Source: Thermaurantimonas aggregans (GTDB lineage Bacteria; Bacteroidota; Bacteroidia; Flavobacteriales; Schleiferiaceae). From it: a stretch of DNA of 64,000 nucleotides. The stretch lies in assembly GCF_003851885.1 (NCBI RefSeq), contig NZ_BHZE01000011.1, forward strand, positions 1 to 64,000, in the 5' to 3' direction. Of the stretch, positions 155 to 4,268 are shown piece after piece (position 1 is the first letter of the stretch; each line of letters starts with the position of its first letter). The notes under the pieces were generated by a model. That model had not been told where the DNA came from. It ran no database searches and saw only the letters and a program-made list of their open reading frames with translations. Both the position numbers and the translations under genes were made by a program.

Positions 155-769
155 CTAAAACTTACCACTTCCATCGGGCTGATACACATATCTAAATGTA
201 TAAAACCTCGACTGGCTCTCCTGGGTCGGCCGAGCAGGGGCATCCTTGTAATAGCTCAGAATTTCGAACTTGGCATATCGGCCATTGTGTGTGCGCACCA
301 CAAATATGCGCCCTGGTATCGGAAATACTAAGTGTGTATTGATATCGTAGTTGTACCATCCCTGGCCACTACCGGTAGGTATCGCATAGGTGCCCGGGCC
401 GTCTTGTCTGAAGGTGGACTCTGCCGGAGCCTGTTTTACTTCTTCCAGCAGACCGTTTACCATACTTACAGCTGCCACGCCTGTACGATCGGGTTCATCA
501 TTGATCCCGATGCGGGCCCCACCGTTTACAATTATGGTCAGTCCCCTGAAGGCAATATCCCAGTGGTCATCGTCTACCACAGTGCCCTTCTCAAAGCTGA
601 ATTTCGTAAAAGGCCCTCCTACAGGCTGTCCCATACCACCGGTCTGGGGTGCAGGAATGTTGGTTGCCGTGCGTATTTCAAGGTTTGAAGTGTCGGAAGT
701 GTTTGACTGTTCCTTGTTGCAAGCGACGAATAGAAACGCGATAGTTGCTAGAATTGATGGAGTTCTCAT
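155..769 (-). CDS. HmuY-like heme-binding lipoprotein
   Basis: A 204-residue protein with a short hydrophobic signal ending in the lipobox FVAC, so Cys17 is the likely lipidated residue and the protein should sit on the outer membrane surface. The middle has the HmuY-type pattern KFSFEKG...DDDHWDIAFRG followed by a VNGGAR stretch. Proteins of the HmuY family capture heme and hand it to a partner TonB-dependent receptor; such a receptor lies two genes upstream in the same operon. The gene starts 22 bases after the DoxX-like gene and is followed by a strong terminator, so it is the last gene of the unit. The family call is good; heme as the ligand is inferred from family and context. Confidence 0.8.
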   Translation of the reverse strand: MRTPSILATIAFLFVACNKEQSNTSDTSNLEIRTATNIPAPQTGGMGQPVGGPFTKFSFEKGTVVDDDHWDIAFRGLTIIVNGGARIGINDEPDRTGVAAVSMVNGLLEEVKQAPAESTFRQDGPGTYAIPTGSGQGWYNYDINTHLVFPIPGRIFVVRTHNGRYAKFEILSYYKDAPARPTQESQSRFYTFRYVYQPDGSGKF

Positions 770-791
770 TTTGATAGAAATTGAATGTTAA

Positions 792-1241
792 TTATATAAT
801 CTTTGGTTTAGAGAGAATGCCTTTCCAATCAGGATAGTGATAGGCAAGCAGCCCTGTATTGGTCAGAAACATTACAGCTGTATAGATCAATTCGCCCACA
901 TCGTGCGGCTCCAGAAATATGTGAAACAGTAAAATTTGAAGTGTAATCGGTACTGAAATCACCAGTCCGACGATCCGGTAAAACTGTGTAACAAGGAGCA
1001 GTCCGGCTAGGAGCTCGCTGATACCCAGAAACTGCCAGAAGTATCCGGTCTGTTTCATGCCAAAGATGTAATTTCGGATCTTCAGCACATGGTCCGGGAT
1101 TTGGTCCCATTCGCCGTTTTTGATGTTTTCGATGTGATGTCTTGGACCTACGGGCTGGCTTTTGAATTTTTTGATGCCACCATTGATTAGAATGATGCCC
1201 AATGCAAGCGATAAGATGGAAATGAATAGTCGGATGTTCAT
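792..1241 (-). CDS. DoxX-like small integral membrane protein
   Basis: About 149 residues with four predicted membrane segments (roughly residues 5-20, 68-84, 90-110 and 116-133) and a DoxX-like layout. The start is taken as the ATG at 1241, which shares one base with the TGA stop of the receptor gene upstream (TGATG), a sign of translational coupling; a GTG one codon earlier is possible. DoxX-family proteins have no single agreed function; some act in redox or thiosulfate metabolism. Here it sits between a TonB-dependent receptor and a HmuY-like lipoprotein, so a role linked to heme or iron uptake is plausible but only inferred. Confidence 0.65.
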   Translation of the reverse strand: MNIRLFISILSLALGIILINGGIKKFKSQPVGPRHHIENIKNGEWDQIPDHVLKIRNYIFGMKQTGYFWQFLGISELLAGLLLVTQFYRIVGLVISVPITLQILLFHIFLEPHDVGELIYTAVMFLTNTGLLAYHYPDWKGILSKPKII

Positions 1242-3316
1242 CACAATTGAAATTGAAGTTTAGTAAAGAGTTGACGTCCTGGTTGATTGGTCAAAAAAAC
1301 TGGATCTATGTAGTTAAAGAGGTTCAGCGCGCCATATTGCAGCTGAATGTTTTTGGTCAATGAATGATTGACTGAAAGATTAACAAGCCATACAGGCTTT
1401 GAAAAGGTGTCATACCGGTCGAGTATTTCATTTTGATTGGTGTCAAACAGTCCGAAAGGACTGCGGTAGAATATTCTGATAAACAATTGCGTGTGGTCAG
1501 CTGGCGTATATTGAATCTTGGCATTAGCCATGTGACGGGAGCGGTTGAAGAGGCCGTGGTAATCGCCGGTACTGAGACGTATGGTTTGTAGAGATTCGGG
1601 GTTACGGGCAAAGAACTTACCCTCCCGCAGCTGACCGATGACCTCCAGATCGCCGGTGTAGAGCAGCTGATATCCTGCCTGTACGCGCCACTCAGGACTG
1701 ATGATGTAGCTGCCATTCCACTCCAGTCCGGCAGTATATACGCGATCCACGTTCAGATAGGTAAATACATTTTGGCCGTTGACTTTAGTGGCGACGGCTC
1801 GCACATCGATCAGGTCACGTATCAGGTTGCCGAAAAAATTTATATCCGTAGAAAAAGCCTTATGCGTGTAGTGGAAGCTGAGATTGGAATTTACAGAACT
1901 CTCTGGTCGAAGCGGATCTCCAAAATCGCTGTGCCGGATGGCTAGAATCTGTCCGGCCTGTTGCAGTTCCTTAAGCCTTCGCTCCACTACATTGTACCCA
2001 AAGACCGAATAGCCTACTGCGGGCAAGGTAAAGTCGAAATACAGCTGCCGCAGGTCCGGAGCTTTATATCCATAGCCCATAGACGACTTCACCGTAAATC
2101 GGTCTGAAAATCGGTAATTTATGCCCAGTTTTGGGGAGAATTGGGATCTGAACTGGTGATGATGGTCGTATCGGTAGCCCGCTACCAGACTGAATCGACC
2201 TGTGTACCATTCGAGCTGTTGAAAGATGTATTCACTTCGTAAATAAGCCGGCTCTCCAAAAAGGCTTCTGTTTAGTACTTCTGAGGTAAGACCTGCTCCA
2301 TTGGTGACCAATGCATTTTTCACTCGTAGCACATACCGGACTTCTGGCCTGAGAAACCACTGGTTGTACACATTGCGCTCAAACATGGGGTCGCCAAATT
2401 CCGGAAGGAGTTCCTCGGCCCATGAATGGGTGGCATACGCATCGAATACTAAGAATGAGCGATTGCTAAAAGTGTGCTCGGCAATCAGCGCTATGTTTTG
2501 ATCGCTGAGTGTGGACGTGCCTTCAAAAATTTTTTCGACAGCACTGTTCAGAAGTTTGTATTGCTGCCTCTGCTCAAAGAGTCGGTAATCAATGCGTACA
2601 CGTGACTTATCTGAGTGGCGGTATCCGTAGCGAAGCTGTGTCGTAATGTTGCCAAACGGCTCCACTGTGTTGAACACTTCGCTTTCTGACAGATTGAATC
2701 CATCTGATTTGAAGTAGTTTACAAACACTGATGCGTCATGTTTACCATGGGTGCCTGATACGCCTGCCGACAAATCATGTGTGCCGAAGGAAGCAATTCG
2801 ATAGGCTGCATTTCCGCTGATACCCGGCTTGTTATCAGGTTTTTTGGTAATGATATTGATCACACCCGCCAATGCCTCACTGCCATATAGGGCTGAAGAC
2901 GCACCTTTGATGATTTCGATGCGTTCGATATTCTGTATCATAAAACGCGATAGGTCAATTACTCCCGAACGCCGTCCAAATACAGGCTGACCGTCGATCA
3001 ATATCAGTGTGTAATCGGCTTCCATACCCTGCAGTTGTACTCCTTCCACACCTCCAAATGACGGTACGGTAATCAGTCCGGTCATTTCTTGCAGTATCTC
3101 GTTGAGCCTTGATACTCCTATTTGCTCGATATGTTCCCGGGTGATGATTTCGATGGGAACGACCACATCCGATTTCTTCACGGCATTGCGAGTGGCTGTC
3201 ACTACTACATCGTCGAGATATACATCAATGCTATCGGGCGGTGTCTGGCTTACGACAGCCCAATTCACAGTCAAACTGAATAGAAAAATAAACTCTATGC
3301 GTCGCACACAGCTCAT
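1241..3316 (-). CDS. TonB-dependent outer membrane receptor (heme type likely)
   Basis: A 691-residue receptor. It has an N-terminal signal peptide (residues 1 to about 24), then DDVVVTATRN resembling a TonB box, a plug domain at about 50-160 with LILIDGQPVFGRRSG and IERIEIIKGASSALYGSEALAGVINIITKK, and a beta barrel to the C-terminal aromatic-rich LQFQL end. There is no N-terminal carboxypeptidase-like domain, unlike the receptor at 53.2-55.6 kb. Four bases (ATGA) overlap the upstream DUF6607-like gene, and the DoxX-like gene is coupled downstream. With an HmuY-like lipoprotein in the same operon it is probably the HmuR-type partner that imports heme, energised by TonB. The receptor family is certain; the substrate is inference. 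Confidence 0.9.
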   Translation of the reverse strand: MSCVRRIEFIFLFSLTVNWAVVSQTPPDSIDVYLDDVVVTATRNAVKKSDVVVPIEIITREHIEQIGVSRLNEILQEMTGLITVPSFGGVEGVQLQGMEADYTLILIDGQPVFGRRSGVIDLSRFMIQNIERIEIIKGASSALYGSEALAGVINIITKKPDNKPGISGNAAYRIASFGTHDLSAGVSGTHGKHDASVFVNYFKSDGFNLSESEVFNTVEPFGNITTQLRYGYRHSDKSRVRIDYRLFEQRQQYKLLNSAVEKIFEGTSTLSDQNIALIAEHTFSNRSFLVFDAYATHSWAEELLPEFGDPMFERNVYNQWFLRPEVRYVLRVKNALVTNGAGLTSEVLNRSLFGEPAYLRSEYIFQQLEWYTGRFSLVAGYRYDHHHQFRSQFSPKLGINYRFSDRFTVKSSMGYGYKAPDLRQLYFDFTLPAVGYSVFGYNVVERRLKELQQAGQILAIRHSDFGDPLRPESSVNSNLSFHYTHKAFSTDINFFGNLIRDLIDVRAVATKVNGQNVFTYLNVDRVYTAGLEWNGSYIISPEWRVQAGYQLLYTGDLEVIGQLREGKFFARNPESLQTIRLSTGDYHGLFNRSRHMANAKIQYTPADHTQLFIRIFYRSPFGLFDTNQNEILDRYDTFSKPVWLVNLSVNHSLTKNIQLQYGALNLFNYIDPVFLTNQPGRQLFTKLQFQL

Positions 3317-4203
3317 TCACCCAAAAATTGAAGAATGGCAGAACGGACTTCGCTCTGAGGTGAGGTGGGGTCGAGGGCGTTGATGGTCACAAATGATGGC
3401 TTACCTTCACTGTCGCGTTTCAGAATTACCAATTCACGGCGACGAAGCTCCTCATCCCAAATGAAGCGTACTGTATTCCAATACTGTTGGTTGGATGCCC
3501 ACCATTTTTGTGCAGCAAAGCATCTACTGTCATCGACTTTGCGGTAGATATTCACTCCTTTTTCCTCTGCAATGAGTTGATTCACATTATTTTGGCGTGC
3601 GATTTTTTTATTGTCCTGTAAGTGAACCCAGCCATCAGGAGTGATTTCATGCCTGTTATTTCTTTTCAAAATATTGTAATCACTTCTTTTTGTGAACTCA
3701 CGCCGGGGCAGGGGAGAGTTTGCAGCACTTTCCCAGTACGTTTTTCCGTCCACAAATACCCATGTGCCGTAGCCTTCATATCGGGGGCTGTCATCTACCT
3801 GAAAGACGCGTTGCGTCCATGTGCCTTTTGCATTTTTGGGTGTGATGCGCAGCTTTTGCCAGGTGTCATTTCCGATGTAGTCGAGCAACTCTGTGTTTTG
3901 ATATAGCCAGTCTTGTCTCCAGTGTTTTACTATGGTAGTATCATCCATTATGAGCAGATGCTGAAGAACAATTTTGCCGGGCTTGTCTTCCACGGCCACT
4001 ACCCACTCCAGACCCTTCTCTTTATATACACCGGAAGATTGGTATCCTTCGTGCTCGCTGTGAACAAATGTTTCTGCAAAGAGAAATTCCACTTCATAGC
4101 AGCCGCACATAGCTTTGATAGCAGAGCGCTCACGGGCTTTCTGAGCTATGAGCGCCGAGTGAGCCATTGCGAAGATTATACTGATGAAGGCAAACTTTTT
4201 CAT
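3313..4203 (-). CDS. DUF6607-like secreted protein, first gene of the heme operon
   Basis: A 296-residue protein with a signal peptide (cleavage probably after LIAQ, about residue 20). The mature part begins with a Cys-rich CGCYEVEF element and has many aromatic residues (GTWVFVDGKTYWES and similar). I recognise this as the DUF6607 group found in Bacteroidota; its function is unknown to me. It is the first gene behind the operon promoter at 4236-4268 and overlaps the TonB-dependent receptor by four bases, so its product is probably needed with the receptor, for example in the periplasm. No catalytic motif stands out. Confidence 0.7.
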   Translation of the reverse strand: MKKFAFISIIFAMAHSALIAQKARERSAIKAMCGCYEVEFLFAETFVHSEHEGYQSSGVYKEKGLEWVVAVEDKPGKIVLQHLLIMDDTTIVKHWRQDWLYQNTELLDYIGNDTWQKLRITPKNAKGTWTQRVFQVDDSPRYEGYGTWVFVDGKTYWESAANSPLPRREFTKRSDYNILKRNNRHEITPDGWVHLQDNKKIARQNNVNQLIAEEKGVNIYRKVDDSRCFAAQKWWASNQQYWNTVRFIWDEELRRRELVILKRDSEGKPSFVTINALDPTSPQSEVRSAILQFLGE

Positions 4204-4208
4204 TTTAT

Positions 4209-4265
4209 ATTTATTTAGACTAATTATAAACAGCGCAAAAATATTTATTTGGAATAATTCTAAAC
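4209..4265 (-). promoter_or_regulatory. Two direct copies of a palindromic operator over the heme promoter
   Basis: Two 23-bp stretches, 4209-4231 and 4243-4265, match at 20 of 23 positions and lie 34 bp apart in the same orientation. Each has a 17-bp near-palindrome: TTTAGACTAATTATAAA (4214-4230) and TTTGGAATAATTCTAAA (4248-4264). The ideal form would be TTTAGAAT-A-ATTCTAAA. The second copy fills the space between the -33 and -7 boxes, and the first lies just past the -7 box at the expected transcription start. This is a repressor layout; a metal sensor of the Fur or DtxR type is the natural guess given the genes controlled. Confidence 0.65.
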
Positions 4266-4268
4266 AAA
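4236..4268 (-). promoter_or_regulatory. Bacteroidota-type promoter of the heme-uptake operon
   Basis: On the minus strand TTTG (4268-4265), a 21-base spacer and TATTTTTG (4243-4236) match the -33/-7 consensus TTTG...TAnnTTTG of Bacteroidota housekeeping promoters. The first gene starts at 4203, about 33 bases after the -7 box. The promoter is overlaid by two operator-like palindromes. Confidence 0.75.

Follow-up and report, generated by a model that had tools for sequence, protein, structure and literature searches.

Two predicted Fur boxes bracket the -7 element of a heme-uptake operon promoter in Thermaurantimonas aggregans

The window analysed here, a stretch of 64,000 nucleotides from Thermaurantimonas aggregans, carries an operon of four closely packed genes on the minus strand, read from a predicted promoter at 4236-4268. 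Its genes, in order of transcription, are as follows.

3313..4203, minus strand: RhuH-family haemophore (Pfam DUF6607), first gene; PF20311, E = 2e-100; PDB 8xjc, E = 1.1e-80
1241..3316, minus strand: TonB-dependent outer-membrane receptor, with Pfam Plug and TonB_dep_Rec_b-barrel domains and a 4-nt overlap with the upstream gene
792..1244, minus strand: 150-aa membrane protein with weak similarity to DoxX (E = 0.0017, which falls short of the curated cut-off)
155..769, minus strand: HmuY-family haemophore; PF14064, E = 2e-11; PDB 8b6a, E = 1.6e-6

The initial annotation had read this as a heme-uptake operon, which our searches bear out and sharpen to a RhuH-family haemophore, a TonB-dependent receptor, a weakly DoxX-like protein and HmuY. 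Two unrelated haemophore families, RhuH and HmuY, are therefore encoded within one operon (155-4203, minus strand), and homologues of the 150-aa DoxX-like protein are present in many haem loci. The DUF6607 protein is homologous over its full length (residues 12-279) to PDB 8xjc, a 'haemophore' of Riemerella anatipestifer that we equate with RhuH on the basis of its name, its length and the position of His96. This heme ligand of RhuH corresponds to His94 of the T. aggregans protein, in the motif KHWRQDW, and is invariant in nine family members. Pfam DUF6607, of which our literature search found no mention, is thus identified as the RhuH haemophore family, with heme binding and haemoglobin stripping as predicted activities. 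The shared operon of T. aggregans contrasts with most Flavobacteriales loci, where rhuH and the receptor/HmuY unit are transcribed divergently.

Bacteroidota promoters follow the consensus TTTG-N(about 19-21)-TAnnTTTG, and by its match to this consensus the rhuH-operon promoter is assigned to 4236-4268. A scan of the region for E. coli-type promoters found none above chance, as expected for a promoter of the -33/-7 type. The elements of the promoter region are listed below.

4265..4268, minus strand: -33 element TTTG, read directly in the sequence, in line with the Bacteroidota promoter consensus
4248..4264, minus strand: predicted Fur box 1, TTTAGAATTATTCCAAA on the minus strand, 1 mismatch, within the -33/-7 spacer
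4236..4243, minus strand: -7 element TATTTTTG (TAnnTTTG), an exact match to the consensus
4214..4230, minus strand: predicted Fur box 2, TTTATAATTAGTCTAAA on the minus strand, 2 mismatches, over the expected transcription start

Read along the minus strand, the order is TTTG (4268-4265), box 1 (4264-4248), TATTTTTG (4243-4236), box 2 (4230-4214) and ATG (4203). The 21-nt spacer between TTTG and TATTTTTG contains box 1, and box 2 begins 5 nt after the -7 element. The layout originally described, with one palindrome in the -33/-7 spacer and the other on the expected start, is therefore the one we find, the start being placed by the promoter consensus.

Both boxes lie in a direct repeat (4207-4232 and 4241-4266) of 26 nt with 88% identity. 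Its 23-nt core (4209-4231 and 4243-4265) has three differences, matching the 20 of 23 identical positions first reported, and each copy holds, as also reported, one 17-bp near-palindrome. The ideal form of both is TTTAGAAT-N-ATTCTAAA, with an odd axis of the 7-1-7 type; the 17-mer at 4214-4230, TTTAGACTAATTATAAA, has two mismatches to TTTAGAATNATTCTAAA, and the one at 4248-4264, TTTGGAATAATTCTAAA, has one. These are the only two sites in the 64 kb with at most two mismatches to TTTAGAATNATTCTAAA. Dinucleotide shuffles gave a mean of 0.10 such matches per 64 kb, with 1 of 100 shuffles reaching two, and the placement of the two 17-mers 34 nt apart in one intergenic region comes on top of that expectation. 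Box 2 agrees with the sites TTTAnAnTnAnTCTAAA upstream of orthologues.

The palindrome motif coincides exactly with the Fur box predicted in R. anatipestifer, ATTTAGAATTATTCTAAAT (PMC5609570). In that species, Fur shifts promoter fragments carrying such boxes, including that of hmuR, in electrophoretic mobility shift assays (PMC5609570), and rhuH and rhuR-rhuA share a bidirectional promoter with a Fur box, at which deletion of fur or mutation of the box raises rhuH transcription (PMC11967795). As the first gene of the T. aggregans operon belongs to the RhuH family, Fur control has experimental support at an orthologous gene. The two species share the palindrome, a Bacteroidota promoter with the box less than 100 bp from the start codon (at both hmuR and rhuH/rhuR-rhuA in R. 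anatipestifer), and an orthologous RhuH gene, first in its operon, together with a TonB heme receptor. They differ in that R. anatipestifer has a single published box in a bidirectional promoter, whereas T. aggregans has two boxes flanking the -7 element of one co-directional operon, which also encodes HmuY. A second relative is the hfp heme operon of Flavobacterium psychrophilum, hfpR-1813-hfpY, which has an iron-repressed promoter and the same order of TonB receptor, small unknown protein and HmuY-like haemophore; the accessible part of that report defines no Fur site, describes no fur mutant as obtained and, unlike what is seen in T. aggregans, does not describe RhuH as a member of the operon (PMC9331221). 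Our search of the Bacteroides and Porphyromonas literature found no matching operator, and the Fur of P. gingivalis does not bind the E. coli box (PMC6613475). In the literature searched, one paper on a single species spells out the Fur box of this group.

The initial annotation had proposed scanning the genome for the motif near iron genes. In pattern searches with the reversed pattern as control, the motif was enriched, occurring at 13 places in the T. aggregans genome versus 4 for the control, so that about 4 of the 13 are expected by the control; the asymmetric pattern TTTANANTNANTCTAAATAA was less selective and was left out of the counting. Promoter-positioned boxes were found at feoAB, a TonB receptor, a ferritin/Dps-type protein, hemA, a cytochrome c/citrate-transporter-like pair and sufS, the last a class-V aminotransferase named SufS from its sequence and not from a specific model. 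Over 60 relatives the motif occurred 559 times versus 249 for the control. Of the 57 genomes with a Fur gene, 53 showed the excess and the other four had no more matches than the control. The excess was absent from three genomes with no Fur hit (3 versus 11), a comparison that is supporting rather than decisive because the group is small and one of its members spans only 0.3 Mb.

Orthologous promoters show the same pattern. A site with at most three mismatches lies within 300 bp of the start at 61 of 80 rhuH promoters, compared with 46 of 1,600 shuffled promoters, although these 80 named loci are mutually related and the counts are therefore not independent events. At feoA, the best box falls 3-32 bp before the frame in most of 20 relatives; several are weak, with four mismatches, and in two genomes (G048 and G039) the match has no feoA after it. 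The feo loci of two Fur-less genomes had no box, their best matches having 5-6 mismatches. No box was found at feoA in G012 and G026, both of which have Fur; in these two, feoA directly abuts the gene before it.

The T. aggregans genome encodes one clear Fur (C15:31572-31934, 90 bits), among whose nearest sequence relatives of known structure Fur proteins predominate, a similarity that by itself is no proof of DNA specificity. The fur promoters checked contained no box, so autoregulation lends no help to the assignment. Taken with the identity to a box tested by EMSA in R. anatipestifer, the Fur-box mutant of rhuH and the recurrence of the motif, however, the evidence supports the proposal that the palindromes are the operator of an iron sensor, and we consider it very probable that both are Fur boxes controlling the heme operon. 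Heme uptake is therefore most likely off when iron is sufficient. When cytoplasmic Fe2+ is plentiful, iron-loaded Fur dimers would sit on both boxes, in the -33/-7 spacer and on the start, burying the -7 element and blocking RNA polymerase, so that the unit rhuH-TonB receptor-DoxX-like-hmuY would be repressed. At low iron, apo-Fur would leave and the proteins for heme scavenging and uptake would be made. We infer that Fur binds these two copies in T. aggregans, that both would be occupied, and that the response is probably to iron rather than to heme itself.

Doubling of the box is not confined to this promoter. At least two sites with at most four mismatches were present at 47 of the 80 rhuH promoters, usually 38-51 nt apart. 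Within T. aggregans, the -7 element is flanked by a box on either side at three iron-uptake promoters: rhuH, a second TonB receptor and feoAB, with start-to-start spacings of 34, 30 and 24, respectively. The upstream box of feoAB is weak (four mismatches). The promoter of the second TonB receptor (L028:1535-1581, contig 22) reads box, TACATTTG, box, and its box 1 has the same position relative to the -7 element as box 1 of rhuH. As the spacings have no common helical phase, side-by-side occlusion of the promoter seems likelier than a fixed Fur-Fur geometry. The doubling may tighten repression.

It is unlikely, but deserves weight, that the boxes are not a functional pair, with one serving each of two divergent promoters, now or once, or with one being a relic; this concerns the doubling and leaves Fur in place. 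In most related loci the boxes lie between rhuH and a divergently transcribed TonB receptor and may there act on two promoters, and the rhuH/rhuR promoter of R. anatipestifer is itself bidirectional (PMC11967795). In T. aggregans, however, the receptor is transcribed in the same direction as rhuH, and it is a fructose-bisphosphatase gene, starting about 180 bp beyond box 1, that diverges from the operon. Three other genomes (G003, G019 and G028) also have two boxes for one co-directional operon, and feoAB, albeit with its weak upstream box, and the second TonB receptor each have a box on either side of a single -7 element. A pair acting on one promoter is thus the reading we retain for the rhuH operon.

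The iron sensor had originally been left as either Fur or DtxR. Operators of the DtxR/MntR type, sensing iron or manganese, have similar outer arms (TTTAG...CTAAA, as in TTAGGnnnnnCTAA), the genome encodes one DtxR, on contig C1, and the promoter of its own gene has TTTAGGCTCACCTAAA, with the same outer arms. The spacing between the arms differs, however, being 6 with an even axis in DtxR/MntR boxes and 7 with an odd axis in T. aggregans. TTTAG-N6-CTAAA occurs at 21 of 28 dtxR promoters of relatives, against N7 at 2 of 28, and this conserved element (loci L007 and L033-L061) is, from its position, probably the DtxR/MntR autoregulatory operator. Both sites in 4209-4265 lack the N6 spacing of the dtxR promoters and have N7, as do the feo boxes. 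The N6 pattern is not enriched in the T. aggregans genome (53 versus 95 for the control), whereas the N7 excess persists (69 versus 42) in the six genomes that have Fur and no or only a marginal DtxR hit. Genomes of this kind also keep boxes at feoA, strong in G025 and G034 and weak in G037 and G047. In addition, P. gingivalis MntR does not bind the feoB1 promoter (PMC4805248). Ownership by DtxR is accordingly very improbable; of the two candidates, Fur is favoured, the excess tracking its gene.

Another member of the Fur family, PerR-like or Zur-like, is likewise very improbable as owner of the sites. Palindromes of the 7-1-7 type are common to Fur, PerR and Zur, and dps, which has a box upstream, is a typical PerR target. 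The second family member in the genome, on contig C8, nevertheless scores just 31.6 bits and has the CxxC pairs expected of a Zur protein, most of the target genes function in iron or heme uptake, and R. anatipestifer Fur binds the same sequence (PMC5609570). Chance can be set aside almost entirely: the 17-mer consists largely of A and T and lies in an AT-rich region, but two adjacent sites against 0.10 expected, and conservation of the motif at orthologous promoters, contradict it.

With Fur as the probable regulator, what is new here is extent and not kind: the locus is a further example of a known Fur switch, and its doubled site is found again in many relatives. We propose, tentatively and with somewhat more doubt than confidence, that Fur and DtxR of this order use the same arms, TTTAG...CTAAA, with a spacing of 7 versus 6 as the sole distinction, and that a pair of Fur boxes bracketing the -7 element is a common lock on promoters for heme and iron uptake. 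If so, a single base of spacing would separate the Fur box from the DtxR-type box, and paired boxes around the -7 element would switch expression more sharply or more tightly than one box does. The same box stands at rhuH and feoAB promoters in many families of the order, which offers a testable Fur regulon for genomes without genetics, and DUF6607 can be equated with the RhuH haemophore family.

At dps (L024), cytochrome c (L025) and hemA (L027), the boxes lie well upstream of the -7 element, unlike those of the uptake genes. Boxes in this position at iron-using or iron-storing genes could reflect activation by Fur, or could be chance hits. The Fur-like box of hemA lies about 75-150 bp upstream of the -7 element (about 84 bp in relatives) and is conserved in relatives (L276-L301). 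Activation of hemA by Fur is nevertheless largely rejected for the relatives: in most of those of family f1 with this box, the -7 element of a divergent gene of about 300 aa lies about 12 bp beyond it, and the box therefore probably belongs to that gene.
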